Source: Acidobacteriota bacterium (GTDB lineage: Bacteria > Acidobacteriota > Terriglobia > Terriglobales > Acidobacteriaceae). Taken from it: a stretch of 37,648 nucleotides of DNA. Positions 2 to 10,480 of the stretch are shown in pieces. Below the pieces are notes generated by a model. It saw only the letters and a list, made by a program, of their open reading frames with translations, was not told the origin of the DNA and did not search any database. How positions within the stretch are numbered: the stretch's first letter is position 1; every line of letters begins with the position of its first letter. The stretch lies in contig JAGWNX010000032.1 in assembly GCA_028872955.1 (NCBI GenBank), forward strand, positions 1 to 37,648, read 5' to 3'. The position numbers were made by a program, and so were the translations under genes.

Positions 2-1081
2 GTTGCCTTGCCGTTGCCCTCTACCGCAGTGCCGTTGTTTGCCAACGCGGCAGGCCGCGGTTACTACAGGGTGGCCTACACCGCGCAGCAGAACGCTGCC
101 CTGGCAGCGGCGATCGGGCAACTGCTGCCTGCCGAGCGCATTTGCCTGGTTGGGGACCGCTGGGCGCTGCTCGCGACCCAAGCCGCGGTGCAGCCGCGCG
201 ACGCCACCGCCGACAGCGTAACGGACGTGCTGGAGCTACTGCTGGCGATGCGCAACGACCCCAGCCCGGAGGTGCTCGATACGGTAGCCAGCCGGCTGCG
301 CGCCATCGACGACCAGATCGTCAGCAGCCAGGATCGCGACCGCTACCATGCGGTGCTGCGTGCAGCCTTTCGCCCGGTCTTTGCGGCGCTCGGCCCGTCG
401 TCTCCGCGCGATCCGTTTGACCGGCAGATGCTGCGCACGCATCTGCTGGAGCTGCTGGGGGAGGCGCAGGATGCGGACGCGCTGGCCGAGGCGCAAACGG
501 TGGCTGCGCATGTGCTGGCACCGCGTCGGCGGGCGTACACCGGCGTCGATCCCATGTTTGCCGATGCAGCCGTGGCGCTGGCGGCTGAGCATGGCGACGC
601 CGCGCTGTATGACCGGATGCAGGCTCTGACGCAGGCGGTCGCAGACCCTGATCTGCAGTCGGACGCGCTACGTCTGCTGGCGCGCTTCCAGTCGCCGCTG
701 CTGGTCATCCGCACGCTGGACTATGCCGTGTCGGGGCAGGTGAAGAACCAGGATAGCTGGAGCCTGATTGCAGAGCTGCTGCGCAACCGTCAGACCTCGG
801 CGCTGGCATGGGAGTATGTGCAGCAGCACTGGCCGCAGGTCAAAGCCCAGTTGACGACCAACTCCGGCGGGCATATTGTTGCGGCCACCGGCGGGTTCTG
901 CACGCCGCAGCTGCGCGACGAGGTGGCAGACTTCTTTGCCAGCCACCCGGTGGAGGCGGCCGACCGCACGCTGGCGCTGACGCTGGAGAGCATCGACAGC
1001 TGCATTCGAGTGCGCGCAGTGCAGCAGCCGCAGCTGCATGCCTGGCTGCTTCTCCATGCGCCCTCTGGCCTGTCACAATAG
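2..1081 (+). CDS. M1 family aminopeptidase, C-terminal part (cut by window edge)
   Basis: The frame is open to the left edge, so only the C-terminal ~360 residues are visible; the first in-frame start-like codon (TTG at 8) is unlikely to be the real start. Near the left end the protein reads NAAGRGYYRVAY, which matches the beginning of the ERAP1-C-like helical domain of M1 zinc aminopeptidases (N-x-G-x-GYYRV-Y). It is followed by long alpha-helical repeats including AERICLVGDRWALL, where family members have an ER-x-x-L-x-x-D-x-W/F pattern. The catalytic GXMEN and HEXXH parts would lie upstream of the window. The role inferred is removal of N-terminal residues from peptides. It is followed after 6 bases by the MFS transporter, so the two are probably co-transcribed. 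Family call is firm; substrate and location cannot be judged from this part. Confidence 0.85.
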   Translation, partial: VALPLPSTAVPLFANAAGRGYYRVAYTAQQNAALAAAIGQLLPAERICLVGDRWALLATQAAVQPRDATADSVTDVLELLLAMRNDPSPEVLDTVASRLRAIDDQIVSSQDRDRYHAVLRAAFRPVFAALGPSSPRDPFDRQMLRTHLLELLGEAQDADALAEAQTVAAHVLAPRRRAYTGVDPMFADAAVALAAEHGDAALYDRMQALTQAVADPDLQSDALRLLARFQSPLLVIRTLDYAVSGQVKNQDSWSLIAELLRNRQTSALAWEYVQQHWPQVKAQLTTNSGGHIVAATGGFCTPQLRDEVADFFASHPVEAADRTLALTLESIDSCIRVRAVQQPQLHAWLLLHAPSGLSQ

Positions 1082-1087
1082 AGGGGC

Positions 1088-2332
1088 GTGAACGTCACCC
1101 TCAGAACTTCGTTGCGGCAGTGGATTCCCTGCGTCTCCATGCTGCTGCTGTCGCTGCTCAGCTACGCCGACCGCAGCGTGCTCTCGATTCTGAGCCCGAC
1201 GATTCTCGCCGACCTGCATCTGAATGTCATGCAGTATGGCTACGCGGTCTCTGCCTTCAGCCTGTGCTACATGGTGGCGAATCCTGTGTGGGGCCTGTGG
1301 ATAGATCGCCGTGGCGTGTGGACAATGGCGCTGCTTGCGGTGCTGGTGTGGTCGGTCGCCTCCGGCAGTCATGCGCTGATGACGGGTATGGTGAGCATGT
1401 GTGTGGCGCGTGCGGTGCTGGGGTTTGGCGAGGGAGCCACCTTTCCCTCAGGCCTGGCTACGGTGGCAGAGACGCTGCCGCCCGAGCACCGCTCCTTTGG
1501 TCTGGGGCTGGCCTATAGTGGCGGCTCGCTGGGTGCCACGCTCACTCCTTTGCTGATTACGCCAGTCGCGCTGCACTTCGGCTGGCGCGCCACGTTTCTG
1601 CTTACCTCGGCGATGGGTGGGCTGTGGATTCTGCTGTGGCTGGTGCTGCGCTCCACGGGCCTGTATGCGCGTCACCATGCCGCACTGCCACCGCAGCGCA
1701 CTGCAGACGGGCACAGGGCCTCGCGGTGGAATCGCAACCTGCTGGCCACGGTTGCGCTGTACGGACTGGGCGCTGCTCCGTTGGCCTTTGGCCTGTACGC
1801 CGCGCCGTTGTATCTGTCGCGAGTTCTGCATGTCTCCCAGGCTTCGCTCGGGCACCTGTTGTGGATTCCTCCGGCTGGCTGGGAGACGGGCTACCTGGTC
1901 TGGGGAAGGGTCGCCGACCTGCGCCGCCGACGCACCAGCAAGCGGCCCGCGGGCCTGTTTCTAGCCCTGGCACTGGCCAGCGTATTGATCGCAGCCGAGC
2001 CCCTGGCGGCGCGCATGCCGCATCCTGTGCTGGTGTCGATGTTGATCTTCTACCTGGAGATGTTCTTCGCCGGCGGCTTTGTGGTGCTGGTGCTGAGCGA
2101 TGGCATGCAGGCTCAGCCGGGGCAGAGCGCGGGCTTTCTGTCCGGCAGCGCCATCTCCAGCTGGGCGCTGGTCACGGCCCTGCTGACGCCATGGCTGGGC
2201 CATCTCTTCGATCAGCGGCGGTATGGGCTGGCCTTCTGGTGGACCGCGTTGCTGCCGCTGGTCGGCGTCGCCCTGTGGCAGGCTCTGGTGGTCAAGCGGC
2301 CGGTAGCTGCCCTGGTTGCAGCAGGCGACTGA
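1088..2332 (+). CDS. MFS transporter, ACS (anion:cation symporter)-like
   Basis: A 414-residue, very hydrophobic protein with about twelve likely membrane segments. The GTG start follows a GAGGGG Shine-Dalgarno by a few bases. After the second segment is WGLWIDRRGVW, the usual MFS motif A region (G-x-x-x-D-R-x-G). Further on, RAVLGFGEGATFPSG is typical of ACS-type transporters that carry organic anions such as hexuronates, galactonate or tartrate. A second-half loop rich in Arg and Lys (about residues 277-290, RRRRTSKR) would face the cytoplasm. It lies 6 bases after the aminopeptidase, so the pair may be co-transcribed. The substrate cannot be read from the sequence. Confidence 0.88.
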   Translation: MNVTLRTSLRQWIPCVSMLLLSLLSYADRSVLSILSPTILADLHLNVMQYGYAVSAFSLCYMVANPVWGLWIDRRGVWTMALLAVLVWSVASGSHALMTGMVSMCVARAVLGFGEGATFPSGLATVAETLPPEHRSFGLGLAYSGGSLGATLTPLLITPVALHFGWRATFLLTSAMGGLWILLWLVLRSTGLYARHHAALPPQRTADGHRASRWNRNLLATVALYGLGAAPLAFGLYAAPLYLSRVLHVSQASLGHLLWIPPAGWETGYLVWGRVADLRRRRTSKRPAGLFLALALASVLIAAEPLAARMPHPVLVSMLIFYLEMFFAGGFVVLVLSDGMQAQPGQSAGFLSGSAISSWALVTALLTPWLGHLFDQRRYGLAFWWTALLPLVGVALWQALVVKRPVAALVAAGD

Positions 2333-2458
2333 GTTGCGCCGCCCGGCGGAGGCGACCCCACGCGCCAACCCAAGCACTGGTGCCGGGCAGTGTCACTACA
2401 ACGAATTAGCCATGCCCAACTTCATGAGCAAGCCCTAATCTTTTGTCTGAGGACTCGT

Positions 2459-2641
2459 ATGCGCACGCTATCTCTTACTTCCTTTGCCCTCGCTCTTCTC
2501 TTCCTGGCCGCCCTTCCCCTGCATGCACAGAGCGGCTGTGTGAACTCACCGGAGAACCCCACGGCGATTCTCGCGGTGGTCGGCTCGGCAGGAGCGTTTC
2601 TCGCCTCGGCACGGGCGCGCATCAAGGCACGCCGGAAATAG
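2459..2641 (+). CDS. PExPT-CTERM mini-protein, predicted exosortase substrate
   Basis: A 60-residue protein. I chose the ATG at 2459 because a TGAGGA ribosome-binding site sits 5 bases upstream and a signal peptide begins there; the upstream in-frame extension has neither. Residues 1-23 form a signal peptide ending LPLHA, with likely cleavage before Q24. Then come C27, the motif PENPT (31-35), a hydrophobic stretch (36-49) and a basic tail ending RARIKARRK. This is the three-part layout of a PEP-CTERM-type sorting signal, in the PExPT variant I associate with exosortase J in Acidobacteria. The next gene, 61 bases on, is an exosortase, which strongly supports the substrate role. It is odd that only about 12 residues separate the signal peptide from the sorting motif. 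Function unknown. Confidence 0.8.
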   Translation: MRTLSLTSFALALLFLAALPLHAQSGCVNSPENPTAILAVVGSAGAFLASARARIKARRK

Positions 2642-2702
2642 GTCGGCAGGTACCCTCGCCGCCAATTCACCCCGGGTGCTCTCCCGGTAGAATCATCTTG
2701 TT

Positions 2703-4355
2703 ATGTCCACCTTTCCCGCGGCCGACGTGCATCCGGCGTATCACGGCCGCACAGGCCTGTTCGCGCCATCCCGGGTCGCGGCGGCGGCAGCGTGTCTCTC
2801 CATCCTGACTCTATGCTCCGTCTGGACCTCAGCGGTCGCGGTGTGGACCCTGTGGATGGGCGACCCGCTCAAGTCCATCGGGCTCTTTATTCCTCTGGTC
2901 AGTTTTGTGCTGGTGCTGCGCGCCTGGCGTGCGCAGGGCTGGCAGCTTGAGGGCTCGTGGTGGGGACTGGTGCTGCTGCTGGCAACCATTGCTACGGTGC
3001 GGCTGCGCGACCAGGCAGTGCTGGTGCTGGTGCTTACGCCGCACTGGTTCCTCTACTTTCCACCCCACTCGCTGGTAGCGGTCTGCTATGCGGCCAGCAT
3101 GGTGTTGCTGTTTGGCGGGGTTCGTCTGCTGCGCGCCGCATGGTTTCCGGTCGCGCTCATGTGGTTCGTCAATCCCGTACCCCACATCTTCAACCTCTAT
3201 GTCGATCTCCCGCTGCAGCGCGCCTCCGCGCATGTCGCCCGCGGCTTTGCCATGGCGCTGGGGCAGCCGCTGACGCATGACCAGTTGCGCCTGATGTTTA
3301 CGCCGGAGTTTGGCATGTTCATCGCCCCGGGCTGCAACGGAATCCGTGGCGCGATCACCATGGGGTTCATCGCGCTGATTGCGGGATACCTCTACCGCTT
3401 CCGGCTGCGGGCACACATCGCGGTGACGGTGGCGGCGGTTCTGCTGGGCTACGTCTTCAACCTGCTGCGCCTGTGCACTCTGGTGCTCTACTACCTGGTG
3501 GCACTGCATATTCCCTGGCTGCAGAGCCGAGCCGAGATGGGCGACTACATCATCGGCGCCATCCTGTTCCTGATCGCGACGTATCTGCTCTTCCAGGCGA
3601 TCCGCCGACTGAGCAGCGCGGGTGCCGGGCAGGCCGCTGAGCCAGAGGCCGTCGCGGATACATCCGTCTCCACGGCAGCCCTGCTGCGGGTGGGCGCGGT
3701 GGGCATCATCGGGCTAGCCAGTCTTGGAGTTCTGGCCCACACCCTGGTGCATAGCCGCGCCGTGGCGCAACTGGCGGCTCAGCGTGCCGAGCAGGCCTCG
3801 CTGGGAGAGTTCCCGCTGAACGTCGGTGGCTACCACCTGGTGCGCAACTGGAACGAGACCGTAGACACGGGAGCGCTGCTGTACCACTGGGCAGAGTATG
3901 CGCCGGCTGGTGACGGGCCGCACGTCTCGCTCGGCGTCTCGCCCTTCATGGGAGCGCACGATACGCTCATCTGCCACTCGGCCCGCGGCGAGGAGCCGCT
4001 GTGGCACGATCAGCTGAACCTCGTCTCTGCCGATCAGGCCAGCATCGTCTTCAGCGGGGCCTTCTTCAACAGCGGCGTCTCGCAGTATCTGGATGCAACC
4101 ACCGTCTGCAACACCGCCACCTGCGGGGAGTTTGCCAGCGACCATCTGCACTTCGGCTTTGTGTACAGCAAGGTGGATCCCGCAGCGCTCCTGCATCCTG
4201 ATCCGGTGCGTCCGATCCCGATTCTCATTCGCGCCGAGACGCTCGACACGCAGATGCTGCCGGATACGGCGCGTGCGCAGTTGACAGCCTCCGTGCGCGA
4301 CTTTGTTGCGTCTATCCACCTGCAGCAGCTTACCCAGACCTATCGCCATGCCTGA
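2703..4355 (+). CDS. xrtJ: Exosortase (exosortase J-like) with fused EpsI-type C-terminal domain
   Basis: A 550-residue membrane protease/transpeptidase-like protein predicted to process the C-terminal sorting signal of the PExPT-CTERM protein just upstream. Residues 1-300 carry multiple membrane segments. The exosortase signature is at 209-216 (PGCNGIRG, probable catalytic C211) and in NLLRL with R256; H269 in ALHIPW is a candidate third catalytic residue. After a last transmembrane segment near 325-348, the C-terminal ~200 residues look like EpsI: LGEFPLNVGGYHLVRNW at about 367-383, then a HDTLICHS region. EpsI is often a separate protein, so this is a fused form. A TAGAAT box 9 bases before the ATG and little Shine-Dalgarno leave the start signal uncertain. 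The family is firm; the exact subtype (XrtJ) is from memory of its neighbourhood and target motif. Confidence 0.85.
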   Translation: MSTFPAADVHPAYHGRTGLFAPSRVAAAAACLSILTLCSVWTSAVAVWTLWMGDPLKSIGLFIPLVSFVLVLRAWRAQGWQLEGSWWGLVLLLATIATVRLRDQAVLVLVLTPHWFLYFPPHSLVAVCYAASMVLLFGGVRLLRAAWFPVALMWFVNPVPHIFNLYVDLPLQRASAHVARGFAMALGQPLTHDQLRLMFTPEFGMFIAPGCNGIRGAITMGFIALIAGYLYRFRLRAHIAVTVAAVLLGYVFNLLRLCTLVLYYLVALHIPWLQSRAEMGDYIIGAILFLIATYLLFQAIRRLSSAGAGQAAEPEAVADTSVSTAALLRVGAVGIIGLASLGVLAHTLVHSRAVAQLAAQRAEQASLGEFPLNVGGYHLVRNWNETVDTGALLYHWAEYAPAGDGPHVSLGVSPFMGAHDTLICHSARGEEPLWHDQLNLVSADQASIVFSGAFFNSGVSQYLDATTVCNTATCGEFASDHLHFGFVYSKVDPAALLHPDPVRPIPILIRAETLDTQMLPDTARAQLTASVRDFVASIHLQQLTQTYRHA

Positions 4356-4385: not shown

Positions 4386-6263
4386 GTGAAGTTACTACGC
4401 CACACTCTTGCCGTTCTGGCCATCGCGGTACCCACGCTGGCGTTCGTCGCAGGCTGCGGCAGCGGCGGCAGCCTGACTGGCAGCAGCACCTCGACTGGCG
4501 GAGGAGGGACAGGCTCTGGCGGTGGCGGCACCACCGTCACCCTGGCAGCGTTCACGGGCAAGGTGCTGGCCGGGACGCAACCGGTTGTCGGTGCCAGCGT
4601 GCAGCTCTACGCAGCGGGAGTCGGTACGGCGGCTACAGCACTGCTGCCCGCCGCTGTAACCACCAGCAGCACGGGCGCGTTTGCCGTGCCGACCGGCTAC
4701 AGTTGCCCATCCAGCAGCAGCCAGCTCTATATCGTGGCCCGCGGCGGCAGCGTCGGCACGGGCAGTGCCAATGCAGCGATTGCCTTGCTCACCGTGGTGG
4801 GAGCGTGTGGGCAACTTAGCACCAGCTCCTCGTTTGTTGTGGATGAGGCAACCACTGCCGCTGCTGCCTGGGCGCTGGGGCAGTTCCTCACGCCGTCCGG
4901 TGGCATCGTTGCCAGCGCAACCAACAACACCGGCCTGGCCAATGCCGTTGCCACGTTCAACGCGCTGGTGAATGGAGCCACCGGCACCGCGCCGGGAGCC
5001 AGTCTGTCTGCAATCGCCACCTCGCCAGCGGCCCGGATTCACACCCTGGCTAACCTGTTGGATACCTGCGCGGCCGCCAGCGGTGGAGCCCCCACCTGCA
5101 CGCAACTGTTTGCCGGGGCGACAGCCGCAGGTGCCGCCGCACCAGCAGACACCCTGGCCGCGGCAGTCAGCCTGGTGCAGCATCCGGCGCTCAACGTCGC
5201 CACCCTGTTTGCGCAGGCAGCCACCAGCACCGCCTATGCACCCGCCCTGACCCAGGCCCCCGCGGACTGGACTCTATTTGTAACCTATACCGATCATGTG
5301 ATGAACTACCCGACCTCGCTGGGGATAGACAGCACGGGCAGCGTGTGGGTGGCCAGCTACTTCAACGCCGCGTCCAAGCTGACCCCCATCGGTTCGCCCG
5401 TCTTTCCGCACGGCATTACGGGCTACGGCCTCAGCGACTCCTATGGCCTGGCCATCGACCCGAGCGACAACGTCTGGATTACGAATCAGCCGCAAGGCAG
5501 CCTGCCGGGCAACTCCGTCACGGTGCTGAACTCCGCGGGGCAGAACATCTCGGGCAGCACAGGCTTCAACCAGGGTGGCCTGAACTACCCCGTCGGCATC
5601 GCAATCGATAGCAACGCTACGGCCTGGGTGGTGGACTATGGCAACGCCCACGTCACACTCTTCTCCGGCACCGGCGCACCCCTCTCGGGAAGTGCAGGGT
5701 ACACGGCACCAACCCTGGCGTTTCCGGTCGTCGTCGCGCTGGATGGCAATCATAATGGCTGGATTGGCGACCAGAACGACAGCTACATCACCCGCATCTC
5801 GGCAGACGGCAAAGCCAACCTGCCCGTTGCCTGCTGCCAGGGCCCTAACGGCATTGCCGTGGACCAGCGTGGCAACGTGTGGGTGGCAAACTACTTTGGA
5901 GACAGCCTGAGCCTGGTCGCAGGCGATGGCACGATCCGCGCCGCCGGTACCATCAACGCTGGCGGCACCATCCGGCATCCGCAGGGGTTGGCGATCGACG
6001 GAAACGGCAATGTATGGGTCGGCAACTTCCGCGCCGGATACCTTACGGAGCTGGCTGGCAGCGGTACGACCAATCCAGGACAGGCGATCTCTCCTGCTGC
6101 GGGCTGGGCACCGGACTCCAATCTCTTCGGAGCGTTCGCCCTTGCGATTGATGCGAGCGGTAACCTCTGGGTGAGCAACGCTTACGGCAACTCGGTGACC
6201 GAGTTTATCGGCCTGGCTGCCCCGGTTAAGACGCCGCTGCTGGGACTGCCGCAAGCACCCTGA
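4386..6263 (+). CDS. Lipoprotein with seven NHL/Vgb-type beta-propeller repeats
   Basis: A 625-residue probable outer-surface or periplasmic lipoprotein. The GTG start has GGAG four bases upstream. The signal peptide ends FVAGC, giving lipidated C24, followed by a Gly/Ser-rich flexible linker to about residue 50. Residues ~52-115 resemble a carboxypeptidase-regulatory/transthyretin-like beta domain (FTGKVLAGTQPVVGASVQLY). A middle Ala/Thr-rich region follows. From about 309 on there are seven repeats of the form G-hydrophobic-A-I-D-x-x-G-N-V-W-V: SLGIDSTGSVWVAS, GLAIDPSDNVWITN, GIAIDSNATAWVVD, VVALDGNHNGWIGD, GIAVDQRGNVWVAN, GLAIDGNGNVWVGN and ALAIDASGNLWVSN. This fits one complete seven-bladed propeller. 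It starts 30 bases after the exosortase gene, so co-expression is likely. No catalytic residues can be assigned; binding of a ligand or surface polymer is inference. Confidence 0.75.
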   Translation: MKLLRHTLAVLAIAVPTLAFVAGCGSGGSLTGSSTSTGGGGTGSGGGGTTVTLAAFTGKVLAGTQPVVGASVQLYAAGVGTAATALLPAAVTTSSTGAFAVPTGYSCPSSSSQLYIVARGGSVGTGSANAAIALLTVVGACGQLSTSSSFVVDEATTAAAAWALGQFLTPSGGIVASATNNTGLANAVATFNALVNGATGTAPGASLSAIATSPAARIHTLANLLDTCAAASGGAPTCTQLFAGATAAGAAAPADTLAAAVSLVQHPALNVATLFAQAATSTAYAPALTQAPADWTLFVTYTDHVMNYPTSLGIDSTGSVWVASYFNAASKLTPIGSPVFPHGITGYGLSDSYGLAIDPSDNVWITNQPQGSLPGNSVTVLNSAGQNISGSTGFNQGGLNYPVGIAIDSNATAWVVDYGNAHVTLFSGTGAPLSGSAGYTAPTLAFPVVVALDGNHNGWIGDQNDSYITRISADGKANLPVACCQGPNGIAVDQRGNVWVANYFGDSLSLVAGDGTIRAAGTINAGGTIRHPQGLAIDGNGNVWVGNFRAGYLTELAGSGTTNPGQAISPAAGWAPDSNLFGAFALAIDASGNLWVSNAYGNSVTEFIGLAAPVKTPLLGLPQAP

Positions 6264-6658: not shown

Positions 6659-9600
6659 ATGACGAATTCGCTTTGCCCCACTCCAACCATGTCTCGCTCC
6701 AGCTGCGCCGTTCCTGCGGCAAGCTGGCTGCTTGGGATCTTTGCTGTGCTGCTGCTTGCGGTGCTGCCTGCTGGCGCACAGCTTGCCGGCAAGGGCGAGA
6801 TCACGGGCGTGGTTACCGATCCCACGGGCGCTGTGGTGCCCAATGCCACCATCACGGCCGTCTCCGCAACGCGCGTGACCAAGACGACGGTCACCAGCTC
6901 GGCCTCAGGGCAGTACATCATCTCGCCGCTGGATCCGGATATCTACACGGTTACGGTTACGGCCAGCGGCTTTGAGACCGTGCGTCAGGAGAACGTCCAC
7001 GTAAACGCGATGGAGGTGGCTGACGTTCCGGTGCAGTTGACGGTGGGCTCCAGCTCGCAGTCCGTCACCGTCAGCACGGCTCCTCCGGCGCTGGAGACGA
7101 CGAACGCCACGCTGGGATCGACGATGGAGAATGAGATGTACTCCGCGCTGCCGATTGAGATGGGAGCCTACGGCCAGGCGGACCAGCGCCGCGCCACAGA
7201 CTTTGCCTTCCTGATGCCGGGCGTGCAGGGCAACAATACGAACGGCAATGCCACGACGAACACCGGCATTGTCAACGGCTCCGGCAGCAAGGGTGCGGTC
7301 TCGGCGGTCTACATTGACGGCCTGCCGTTTGTGCGTGCGGGCGGCAACGGCGACCCGCGTTATGTGTGGACCGCCATCTCGGTCGATGCCGTGGACCAGT
7401 TCCAGGTGCAGACCAGCGGCTACTCGGCGATCTACGAGGGGCAGGGCATTCAGAACTACACGGTGAAGCAGGGCAGCCCGAGCTTCCACGGCTCGGTGTA
7501 CGAGTTCTTCCGCAACACGGCTCTGGATACCTGGGGCTTCTTCGGTGCCGTGCCCAACCCCATCACCGGCGTCGTCTCCAAGCCGATTGAGCGCAGCAAC
7601 GAGTACGGCATCAACCTGTCCGGTCCGCTGCTCCCGTTCACCAGCTGGAAGGACAAGGTCTACTTCTTTGGCAACTACAACGGCTTCCGCTACTCCAGCG
7701 CGACGCCGGTAGCCATCACTTTCCCAACGGCAGCACAGCAGGCGGGTGACTTCAGTGCGACGGGCATCAACATCTACGACCCCAGCACGCAGGCCAGCTG
7801 CACGGCAAACAGCACCAACGGTCCGTGCCGCTACCAGTATGGCTACGGCCCAGGTTCGGGCAGCGGCCCCGCAGGCAATCCAGTCAAGACCGGTGCGCCG
7901 ATCAATGTCATCCCGTCCAGCGAGTTTTCTACCATCGCGCTTAACCTGCAGAAGTTTCTGCCCAGCGGAATTGGCACGGCTCTGCAGAACAACTTCATCT
8001 CGCCGAACCCGACGGGCCTGACCAACTGGTCGACGACGAACCGCATCGACTACACCATCAACAGCAAGAACACGCTCACGTTAGTAGGTGCCGCGGGCCG
8101 TCAGGCCAGCTCGGTGCCGGTCGGCCAGACGACCTCAGGCCGCAACGTCGGTCCTATCCCGTACAACTTCGGCCAGGCCTACGCCCCCAAGACGGTGGTT
8201 GCCGTGGTGGAAGACACCTGGGTGCTCTCGCCCAGCATCGTCAACCAGTTCAAGTACGGCTATGCGCGGTACAACGGCCCGACGATCGACGCGGACCAGT
8301 TGCCGGCGTATGCGGCCTCCACGCTGGGCATCACGGGCATTCCCGCCGGTGCAGCGCAGCAGTCCTTCCCTATTGTCAGCTTCTCTGGCACGGATGCTCC
8401 CACGCAGTGGGCTGGCACTGGCCCGAACGTGACGCTGGCGGAGAACTACACGGCGCTGGATAACCTGCAGTGGACCAAGGGCAACCACAATGTAACGGTA
8501 GGCGGTCAGATCGCGTGGCTGTTGTACAACGTCATCAACGCGACGGGTGGCTCCACGCCGCTTGCGCTGGCCAACGGCGTGACGGAGACGGCGGCGATCA
8601 CGCCCTCCAGCAACAGTTCGCCCAAGTTTGCGGCTACCTCCGGCACAGGTCTGTCCTATGCCAGCTTCCTGGTCGGTCAGATCGACAAGACGAGCTTCAC
8701 GCAGTATCTGCAACAGGAGTTTGGTGCCCGCTTCCGCGCCATCTCGCCCTACGTGCAGGATAACTGGAAGGTGAACTCGCGCCTGACGCTGGACCTTGGC
8801 CTGCGCTGGGACTACTTCCCCACGGTCACCGAGGTACACAATGCGGGCAGCTTCTTCAACCCCACGCTGACGAATCCGGTGACCGGTCTGCCTGGTGCGC
8901 TGCAGTTTACGGGCTCCGGCACCAACACCTGCAACTGCGCCACCCCGGTGAACAACTGGTTCAAGAACTTTGGGCCGCGCATCGGACTTGCCTACCAGAT
9001 CGATCCTAAGTCGGTGATCCACGCCAGCTACGGTGTGATGTTTACGCATGGCAACGCGGTGGGTGGTGGTTCCACCAGTCTGGGCACGCTGGGCTACTCG
9101 GCGGCGCCGTCGTTCTCGGCAACGGGCAATTTGTTGAGCTCCGCGCCGTTTACGGGCACCAATGGAGCGATTCCCACGTACACGGCGGCCAGCGGCTCGG
9201 CCTCGGGCCCGGCGTACGGTACGGGCTATACCAATGTGTCCGGCTACACGGGCTCGCCCTCAGGCGTCGGCTATCCTGACCCCTACCTGGGCGGCCGTGC
9301 GCCAGAGTACATCAACTACAGCTTCGGTCTGCAGCATGAGTGGACTCCAGCGCTGACCTCGACCATCACCTACGTCGGCTCGCAGGGGCACTTCCTGCCG
9401 GCCGATGGCAGCAACGCACGCGGATTCTATGCCAACCAGCTGGATCCCAAGTACCTGTCGCTGGGTTCGAACCTGGCGTTGACCGGTTCGGCGCTGTCTG
9501 CCTATTGCGCAGCGAACTCGGGCGTCTGCCCGTCTTCGCTTAGCGTCTTCAACACGGGCCAGAGCCTGGCGACGCTGCTGAAGCCATTCCCCTTCCAATC

Positions 9601-10480
9601 TGTGAGCGACAGCTTTGGCTATGTCGCCAACGCCCACTACAACGCGCTGCAGGCCGTGCTTAGCCTGCGCGCCTCTCACGGCCTCACCTTCAATGCGAGC
9701 TACGTCTGGTCGCGTTCGATCGATGACGGCGGCACCTACCGGAGTGGCTATACGATTCCGGCGGCGTACAGCAACAACGGCAAGACCTGGGCACCGGATG
9801 CGATCGAGCGCACGGTCTCGACCTCGAACCAGCCGCAGCACGCGGTGGTGACAGGAGTCTGGGCACTGCCTCTGGGCTCGTCGGTGCTGGGCAACAACAG
9901 CGTGGAGCGTGCCATTCTGGGCGGCTTCAAGCTGTCGGAGACGTTCCAGGCGTTCTCGGGCTCGCCGCTGGCGATTACGGCCTCCTCCTGCCAGACCAAC
10001 CCGGCGCAGTCAACCTGCGAGCCGATGCTGAATCCGAACTTCAGCGGTCCGGCGCGCATCAACGGCAAGTGGGGTAAGGGCATCACAGCGGCCAACACGG
10101 GCGCTATCTCCTACATTGCGCCCAGCACGGGCACCTGCTCGACGACCGCGCCGACCGGCCCGTTCATCAACCCGGTGTCCATCTGCCTCAACTCGTCCTA
10201 CGCGCCGAGCTACACCTTCGGCAACTCGCCACGCACCGCACCGTACAACCTGTATGGCCCGGGCAACTACGACCTTGACCTCGCGCTGGTGCGCAGCATT
10301 CCGCTGCACCTGACCGAGGCGTCGAAGTTCGACTTCCGTGTCGAGTGGTACAACGTGACGAACCACACGTTCTTTGCTGTCGCCAGCACGGCGGTCGGCA
10401 ACGCGAGCTTTGGTCACGTCACGGCGAACAGCTCGGCTCCACGCAAGTCGATCCAGCTGTCGGGGCGTATCTCCTTCTAA
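6659..10480 (+). CDS. Oar-like TonB-dependent receptor with carboxypeptidase-regulatory domain
   Basis: A 1273-residue outer-membrane protein. The start at 6659 has a GAGGT site upstream; a second ATG at 6689 is also possible. A signal peptide ends near LPAGAQ (about residue 41). Residues ~45-125 are a carboxypeptidase-regulatory-like beta-sandwich (GEITGVVTDPTGAVVPNATI), which defines the Oar-like class abundant in Acidobacteria. Next is a plug-like region with VYIDGLPFV and an FQVQTSGYSAIYEGQG segment, then a long aromatic-rich beta-barrel in which blocks such as LDLGLRWDYFPT and LTFNASYVWSRS look like beta-strands. The C-terminus SGRISF ends in Phe, as expected for Bam-dependent barrel insertion. 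Such receptors are thought to import or bind large substrates, often glycans. A GH27 alpha-galactosidase lies convergently next door, hinting at galactosides, but this link is weak. Confidence 0.9.
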   Translation: MTNSLCPTPTMSRSSCAVPAASWLLGIFAVLLLAVLPAGAQLAGKGEITGVVTDPTGAVVPNATITAVSATRVTKTTVTSSASGQYIISPLDPDIYTVTVTASGFETVRQENVHVNAMEVADVPVQLTVGSSSQSVTVSTAPPALETTNATLGSTMENEMYSALPIEMGAYGQADQRRATDFAFLMPGVQGNNTNGNATTNTGIVNGSGSKGAVSAVYIDGLPFVRAGGNGDPRYVWTAISVDAVDQFQVQTSGYSAIYEGQGIQNYTVKQGSPSFHGSVYEFFRNTALDTWGFFGAVPNPITGVVSKPIERSNEYGINLSGPLLPFTSWKDKVYFFGNYNGFRYSSATPVAITFPTAAQQAGDFSATGINIYDPSTQASCTANSTNGPCRYQYGYGPGSGSGPAGNPVKTGAPINVIPSSEFSTIALNLQKFLPSGIGTALQNNFISPNPTGLTNWSTTNRIDYTINSKNTLTLVGAAGRQASSVPVGQTTSGRNVGPIPYNFGQAYAPKTVVAVVEDTWVLSPSIVNQFKYGYARYNGPTIDADQLPAYAASTLGITGIPAGAAQQSFPIVSFSGTDAPTQWAGTGPNVTLAENYTALDNLQWTKGNHNVTVGGQIAWLLYNVINATGGSTPLALANGVTETAAITPSSNSSPKFAATSGTGLSYASFLVGQIDKTSFTQYLQQEFGARFRAISPYVQDNWKVNSRLTLDLGLRWDYFPTVTEVHNAGSFFNPTLTNPVTGLPGALQFTGSGTNTCNCATPVNNWFKNFGPRIGLAYQIDPKSVIHASYGVMFTHGNAVGGGSTSLGTLGYSAAPSFSATGNLLSSAPFTGTNGAIPTYTAASGSASGPAYGTGYTNVSGYTGSPSGVGYPDPYLGGRAPEYINYSFGLQHEWTPALTSTITYVGSQGHFLPADGSNARGFYANQLDPKYLSLGSNLALTGSALSAYCAANSGVCPSSLSVFNTGQSLATLLKPFPFQSVSDSFGYVANAHYNALQAVLSLRASHGLTFNASYVWSRSIDDGGTYRSGYTIPAAYSNNGKTWAPDAIERTVSTSNQPQHAVVTGVWALPLGSSVLGNNSVERAILGGFKLSETFQAFSGSPLAITASSCQTNPAQSTCEPMLNPNFSGPARINGKWGKGITAANTGAISYIAPSTGTCSTTAPTGPFINPVSICLNSSYAPSYTFGNSPRTAPYNLYGPGNYDLDLALVRSIPLHLTEASKFDFRVEWYNVTNHTFFAVASTAVGNASFGHVTANSSAPRKSIQLSGRISF

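Follow-up and report, generated by a model that had tools for sequence, protein, structure and literature searches.

What does an exosortase process when its target is little more than a sorting signal? The question is raised by a contig of a bacterium from the Acidobacteriaceae (GenBank assembly GCA_028872955.1, contig JAGWNX010000032.1), of which positions 1 to 37,648, read on the forward strand and called the window from here on, were analysed. In it a gene for a 60-residue precursor lies directly upstream of a gene for exosortase J (XrtJ). The precursor reads MRTLSLTSFALALLFLAALPLHA / QSGCVNSPENPT / AILAVVGSAGAFLASARARIKARRK, where the slashes mark predicted limits. As far as sequences can speak, comparison with relatives demonstrates that target and enzyme are paired, that a cysteine stands at a fixed distance from the sorting motif, that this motif is under selection, and that a third gene, for a lipoprotein with an NHL propeller, is associated with the other two. 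The reading I prefer, at a probability of roughly 0.35, is that the three make up an envelope module in which the clipped cysteine peptide anchors or docks the NHL lipoprotein. I will refer to genomes, contigs and loci by G, C and L numbers, G000 being the genome of the window.

The short target family and its linkage to XrtJ

The preliminary description of this DNA recognized an established family and sorting pattern with the exosortase adjacent, and the NCBIfam models agree: the 60-residue open reading frame (ORF) matches TIGR04200 (PExPT-CTERM protein, model name targ_of_XrtJ) with an E-value of 4.1e-28 and 96.9 bits (cut-off 40), and its neighbor matches TIGR04199 (exosortase J) with 651 bits (cut-off 200), both far above the curated cut-offs. 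With its 57 positions, the TIGR04200 model itself describes a short protein, so that both the pairing and the tiny size of the target are already on record in NCBIfam. A difference from the catalogued pair is that its names and lengths, on which the comparison rests rather than on full family descriptions, mention neither an NHL lipoprotein nor unlinked copies of the target. A literature search found no paper on exosortase J, XrtJ, PExPT, TIGR04199 or TIGR04200, and one for exosortase with Acidobacteria returned only papers on other subjects, judged by title. In those portions of the literature that the search covered, I met neither the third partner nor unlinked targets in several copies nor the constant spacing of the cysteine.

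Along the precursor, C27 is followed by PENPT at residues 31-35, a hydrophobic stretch and a basic tail, and the junction between A23 and Q24 is, by eye, compatible with a signal peptidase I site. Of the product first described, 12 residues (Q24-T35) with one cysteine, the tiny size and the cysteine have been borne out, but the exact length is not fixed: the real cut would fall somewhere in or near PExPT, so 8-12 residues is the safer count. C27 was also considered as a lipobox cysteine, which its context makes unlikely, with Q at position -3 and a distance to the signal peptidase site that varies by up to seven residues in clear cases.

The search for relatives took in 300 distinct genomes: 62 came from the genus and 250 from the family, with 12 in both sets. 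It found 80 target places in 51 genomes (including three below the family cut-off, G421:C214, G411:C172 and G650) and 57 XrtJ places in 49 genomes (matches under 80 bits were excluded as other exosortases, and three below the cut-off, in G464, G444 and G556, were retained). Target and XrtJ occur together in 48 genomes, that is, in 48 of the 49 with XrtJ, which upholds the co-occurrence on which the preliminary description had staked the pairing. Its further supposition, that the target always lies beside XrtJ, holds for most enzymes, 50 of the 57 XrtJ places having a target within 2 kb, but not for the targets, 30 of the 80 being unlinked to XrtJ. There may be up to six targets per genome, a multiplicity that had been overlooked. 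The 50 linked targets lie upstream on the same strand in 49 cases and divergently in one. Six of the seven XrtJ places lacking a near target are in genomes with targets elsewhere; the remaining one (G556) is a fragment of 158 residues. The target occurs without XrtJ in three genomes, G411 (84% complete) and G426 and G511 (99-100% complete). In G426 (L130, rated 99% complete) the target is kept among its usual neighbors, and neither a match to XrtJ nor an NHL gene is found there. The draw from the family places target matches in 9 of 79 genera, and one of 396 genomes from the phylum has 16 above the target cut-off, all in two genera.

The genome of the window has a second target gene itself, away from XrtJ (G000:C70:33504-33659; L002, L112; 62 bits); the co-oriented gene upstream of it encodes a member of glycoside hydrolase family 28. 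In L112 (6468-7577) and L113, the ORFs next to the unlinked targets resemble antisense artefacts.

The cysteine stands exactly three residues before the serine or threonine of (S/T)PE in 76 of the 77 targets read, and the fixed element is C-x-x-(S/T)-P-E-x-P-T. This count, in which near-identical sequences were retained, comprises 75 targets by script and a 76th (G494:C7) by eye, and it excludes G555:C1:1004718 (no locus), G411:C172 (degenerate) and G589:C34:15923 (a normal short target). The stretch from the end of the signal peptide to the cysteine is variable; the part before PT has 10 residues in 52 of the 76 targets whose signal-peptide end could be set. The exception to the cysteine spacing is G444 (L143), where RRRR replaces the cysteine region (EARRRRSPENPT). 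It lies beside a short exosortase that scores 143 bits as exosortase A versus 83 bits as exosortase J, both below the cut-offs. In a SPECPT subtype (L116, L132-L135), the motif contains a further cysteine and the basic tail is short.

Selection was assessed from the ratio of nonsynonymous to synonymous polymorphism (pN/pS) in a set of 76 sequences, with synonymous sites near saturation. In the core GCxxSPExPT the ratio is 0.11 for 31 linked targets of the genus, 0.14 for 11 linked targets of g6 and 0.16 for 28 unlinked targets. The membrane span and basic tail give 0.22 and 0.40, 0.54 and 0.52, and 0.54 and 0.80, respectively. Signal peptide, membrane span and tail all vary more than the core, the value for the signal peptides being inflated by ungapped comparison.

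Larger substrates of XrtJ were sought in 250 genomes with a model of the tail only, built from 38 of 50 non-redundant tails, up to 30 candidates per genome being scored. There were 44 matches at E <= 1e-4, 40 of them in open frames no longer than 117 residues. Three in G589 lie in frames of 180-241 residues, with the signal peptide just before the core. The one clearly long match is an XrtJ-linked protein of 144 residues in G650 (L109/L144), with about 85 further exported residues (by eye) and the ending CTPSPENGT, a possible intermediate to ordinary PEP-CTERM proteins; apart from it, no larger substrate appears among the strong matches. Another 46 of the matches listed have E-values of 0.0015-0.1, and some of these lie in long frames; the group is assumed to reflect chance or other sorting tails. 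Much longer homologues, named at the outset as what would speak against a tiny product, are thus nearly absent, but the G650 protein is an XrtJ-linked exception; the short form itself is conserved in relatives, as expected. Nothing suggests that the precursor is a truncated or frameshifted longer gene: nearly all homologues read are short and the core is under purifying selection; the frame 5' of the ATG is open for 42 residues only.

Table 1. Features of the target, exosortase and NHL genes and of their neighbors in the window. Residue numbers refer to the protein concerned.
Feature	Position	Strand	Basis or remark
MFS transporter gene	1088-2332	+	window ORF
Likely ribosome-binding site, GAGGA	2449..2453	+	sequence; ATG of precursor at 2459
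PExPT-CTERM precursor (TIGR04200), 60 aa, MRTL...RRK	2459..2641	+	NCBIfam match and relatives
Precursor zones: signal peptide 1-23, exported part 24-35, membrane span and basic tail 36-60			limits by eye
Segment that would remain after both predicted cuts, QSGCVNSPENPT (Q24-T35)	2528..2563	+	
C27 codon of precursor	2537-2539	+	cysteine spacing in relatives
Exosortase J (TIGR04199), 550 aa	2703..4355	+	NCBIfam match; PF09721 in 29/29 homologues
C211 codon, presumed nucleophile	3333..3335	+	identical in 31/31 XrtJ aligned
R256 codon, presumed active-site Arg	3468..3470	+	identical in 31/31 XrtJ aligned
D281 codon, invariant Asp four residues before G285, possible counterpart of exosortase His (H-x3-G)	3543..3545	+	
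XrtJ C-terminal domain, about residues 370-547, beta-rich in model	3810..4343	+	predicted separate domain, unmatched in Pfam
NHL beta-propeller protein with lipobox (VAGC, C24), 625 aa, proposed third component	4386..6263	+	PF01436
TonB-dependent-receptor-like outer-membrane protein	6659-10480	+	window ORF

An exosortase with an invariant aspartate and no conserved histidine in its membrane part

All 29 XrtJ homologues examined contain the exosortase domain PF09721, and C211, which the preliminary description had proposed as the residue that might transfer the peptide, is confirmed and invariant (Table 1). The fused EpsI-like domain of that description did not hold up. A separate C-terminal domain is predicted, but neither the window exosortase nor its C-terminal part matches an EpsI family model, and Pfam, whose EpsI model I take to be PF11984, finds one in 0 of 29 XrtJ. 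Foldseek gave nothing significant for the domain, and it has no sequence relative among solved structures. The EpsI identity was rejected for want of a family, structural or sequence match. (TIGR02914 is given as the EpsI model in a passage of PMC1569441.)

The membrane part of XrtJ has no conserved histidine: in 29 XrtJ, the sole histidine in invariant or nearly invariant columns is H419, in the C-terminal domain. All eight other exosortases examined from the same bacterial family have F-H-x-F-S-G-W, with the histidine, in the segment after the arginine. The equivalent segment of XrtJ is D-Y-x-x-G, or D-H-x-x-G in a few. Its aspartate, D281, is identical in the 31 XrtJ aligned and in the 64 of 64 loci parsed from public genomes, an overlapping set (L214, L247 and L251, with D-Y by eye, and L217, cut short, were not parsed, and L264 gave no XrtJ match). 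How the two segments align depends on the setting. One of four settings pairs the histidine with D281 in 31 of 31 sequences, and the other three put other residues there, mostly glutamine; another alignment sets the histidine opposite a gap in XrtJ; and a profile comparison, which finds XrtJ homologous to the other exosortases, stops short of the histidine position. With this dependence in mind, the invariant aspartate, at a spacing that matches H-x3-G, may replace the histidine.

A passage of PMC4343526 attributes a common set of Cys, Arg and His to exosortases and archaeosortases, and the critical residues of ArtA are given as Cys173, Arg214 and Arg253 in part of PMC9263693. Since the third of these is an arginine, the third active-site position varies within the superfamily. 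By its score, XrtJ would still be filed as an exosortase despite the lack of a conserved histidine, which raises the question of a changed catalytic group in the subfamily. The genome of the window contains a second exosortase (L192, G000:C100), with 212 bits as exosortase A against a cut-off of 208.

The NHL-propeller lipoprotein as a third gene

The gene downstream of XrtJ in the window encodes a protein with NHL repeats (PF01436, E-value 3.8e-16), a recurrent neighbor that had escaped the preliminary description. When 818 ORFs from 60 neighborhoods, chosen around targets or XrtJ, were clustered, the most widespread cluster was this NHL-repeat protein, present in 31 loci, with XrtJ in 30. 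Annotated recurrent neighbors of XrtJ are the NHL protein, an M1 peptidase, a TonB-dependent receptor, a ComEC-like protein, a tRNA methyltransferase and Omp85. In at least 28 of the 34 XrtJ places of the genus, the NHL gene lies downstream of XrtJ on the same strand, with 138-802 bases between the matches. (G409, outside these 28, has an NHL gene directly downstream of XrtJ in L217.) Half of the unlinked targets (15 of 30, counted by hand) also adjoin an NHL gene, which may be upstream, downstream or divergent. Nine of the 19 unlinked targets of the genus are less than 1 kb from one, versus 0.2 expected (naive P ~8e-14, assuming random placement and ignoring ancestry). The median number of NHL genes is 4 in the 34 genomes with targets versus 1 in the 28 without (Mann-Whitney p 7e-8), and the copy numbers of the two families correlate (Spearman 0.77; 0.70 among carriers), statistics that ignore phylogeny and are inflated by the relatedness of the genomes. 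Locus L137 (G589) has a tandem pair of NHL genes, each with its own target, and G195 has at least 35 NHL matches.

Near their N-terminus, 36 of 37 NHL homologues show a loose lipobox pattern, and the cysteine is then invariant in 32; since the starts were trimmed or chosen by the same pattern, the aligned cysteine in 37 of 37 is partly a matter of construction. Four further cysteines are invariant. A model of the window protein (mean pLDDT 91) comprises an N-terminal beta domain, a helical part and a beta-propeller, and its best matches in the PDB are virginiamycin B lyase, RNA-binding NHL domains, designed propellers and the extracellular domain of PknD. By eye, none of the 37 clustered NHL proteins has a sorting tail. 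Their conserved C-terminus, which ends in proline, was considered as a signal for XrtJ and rejected, since NHL proteins of genomes without XrtJ share it.

When public genomes were scanned with the alignment of XrtJ, 69 loci emerged, a set that overlaps the 300 genomes. They come from Granulicella, Edaphobacter, Bryocella, Terracidiphilus, Acidobacterium, relatives of these, and metagenome-assembled genomes labelled proteobacterial. Within flanks of up to 6 kb a side, and often less, a target is present in 55 loci and an NHL gene in 34; 31 loci contain both and 11 contain neither. All three genes are found in L258 (labelled Deltaproteobacteria) and L259 (labelled Gammaproteobacteria), whose enzymes resemble the core of XrtJ at 49% and 46% identity, respectively, and lack the C-terminal domain. 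At least one NHL-type protein of each has the N-terminal motif GGRQPI, and the target of L259 ends with its contig, after the core. The same trio in such divergent sequences suggests that it is a unit, though the contigs could be mislabelled. L261 (labelled Nevskia) has the enzyme and neither partner in the available flanks. The loci L212, L214 and L237 (55-57% identity) and L255 (36%), labelled Rhodanobacteraceae or Verrucomicrobia, are like those of Granulicella, and these records are probably mislabelled.

Several points weigh against a partnership, beginning with the inflation of the copy-number statistics just mentioned. Half of the unlinked targets, the one on C70 of the window's own genome among them, do not adjoin an NHL gene. 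The NHL family, with the same C-terminus, occurs in 20 of the 28 target-free genomes of the genus, so in places the protein is independent of the peptide. A target but no NHL gene is found in 24 of the 69 public loci, mainly of the g6 type and some with short flanks. Given their own lipobox, the NHL proteins do not obviously need a second anchor, and their four invariant cysteines may simply pair with one another. Against these stand the associations above, and I consider the NHL protein probably a functional partner of target and XrtJ. Many loci of the g6 type have an Omp85/POTRA gene nearby instead of the NHL gene; downstream of XrtJ in the g6 genomes, it was considered as a component and taken as local neighborhood.

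Possible roles of the clipped peptide

In the preferred scheme, the tiny precursor would first be exported and lose its signal peptide, leaving Q(x)nGCxxSPExPT held in the membrane; its signals make this step very probable. XrtJ would then use C211 and R256 to cut at or near PExPT and remove the membrane tail, and might attach the C-terminus so formed to a partner in the membrane or to a glycan, as proposed for exosortases generally; by analogy with the family, processing of the precursor by XrtJ is likely. The remaining peptide, of about 10 residues with one fixed cysteine, would finally serve as the point in the envelope where the neighboring NHL lipoprotein is anchored or docked, whether by thiol chemistry or by binding of the peptide to the propeller. 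This last role, suggested by gene association, is tentative. The sorting signal would be encoded on its own, in a tiny gene, and not form the tail of the protein that it serves. A stronger version, in which the ten-residue product is covalently joined to the NHL lipoprotein, by transfer through XrtJ or through the cysteine, and possibly by an exosortase with Asp for His, so that the sorting signal acts in trans, is a long shot.

Known systems supply likenesses to parts of this scheme. The PEP-CTERM/EpsH system has the same tripartite signal of motif, membrane span and basic tail and an enzyme of PF09721, whereas the targets of XrtJ are tiny and few and its membrane part lacks the conserved histidine; genomes with the PEP-CTERM signal often have twenty or more targets, according to a passage of PMC3237569. 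In the MYXO-CTERM system, cleavage depends on cysteines of the motif, which are proposed to be lipidated (part of PMC11980579). An invariant cysteine in a motif before the membrane span (76 of 77 here), and an arginine-rich tail, are shared with the targets of XrtJ, while the protease there belongs, according to the same source, to the CPBP family and the substrates are larger. A likeness on the side of the propeller is ScyF, which its NCBIfam name describes as an NHL-type PEP-CTERM protein and which a passage of PMC12188702 gives as a proposed target of cyanoexosortase B. There too an exosortase would serve an NHL-type protein, but the sorting tail of ScyF is in cis and none was seen in the 37 NHL proteins here. 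With GlyGly-CTERM and rhombosortase, an unrelated enzyme whose targets are full proteins, XrtJ shares the tendency of enzyme and target genes to be close when the target is single (16 of 21 genomes, in the portion of PMC3237569 that treats it).

The best surviving alternative is that XrtJ attaches the peptide to a lipid or polysaccharide and so alters the surface, for example by adding thiols to exopolysaccharide, the NHL gene being a co-regulated neighbor and its product no physical partner. According to a passage of PMC1569441, epsH homologues are nearly always found among exopolysaccharide genes, and some unlinked targets have comparable company: of the five of the SPECPT subtype, L133 adjoins a polysaccharide-export gene and L134 one for a sugar-nucleotide-type transferase, L132 and L135 being similar by clustering and layout, and a target of SPEAPT type (L128) adjoins a WecG-type glycosyltransferase. 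The fifth SPECPT target (L116), however, adjoins an HNH protein, and no polysaccharide genes are among the annotated recurrent neighbors of XrtJ. I regard such a minimal lipopeptide or glycopeptide as rather unlikely.

It is more doubtful that the tiny protein serves XrtJ, or the sorting of the NHL lipoprotein, as a membrane-bound subunit or an activator, with the true substrate elsewhere. Strong conservation does extend little beyond the recognition motif, and seven of the 57 XrtJ places have no target near. The protein nevertheless has a complete tripartite sorting signal, copies remote from XrtJ retain the same core, and the strong tail-only matches reveal no other substrate.

A released or surface-held signal, with the NHL propeller as its sensor or carrier, would accord with the nature of NHL propellers as binding folds (virginiamycin B lyase, RNA-binding NHL domains and the extracellular domain of PknD among the structural matches) and with the joint increase in copy number of peptide and propeller. 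Paralogous peptides of one genome, however, have nearly the same core, unlike cognate sets of signals and receptors, and the annotated recurrent clusters include no signalling output gene; the near constancy of the core makes a free signal less likely, and I think it quite improbable. Finally, that this is an ordinary pair whose target has decayed from a longer ancestor, like the 144-residue version in G650, is already disfavored and highly improbable in view of the short form in nearly all cases read, across several genera, and of the strong purifying selection on the core.

The substrates of XrtJ are almost pure signal, so a processed product could be characterized whole by mass spectrometry. 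That could reveal what exosortases add, some new moiety being said, in part of PMC11980579, to remain at the cleavage site. As to the purpose of the peptide, the NHL lipoprotein offers a hypothesis that can be tested. At the left edge of the window, positions 8-1081 hold the C-terminal part of a gene whose ending is similar to that of the M1-family peptidase encoded close to the target in 11 related loci.

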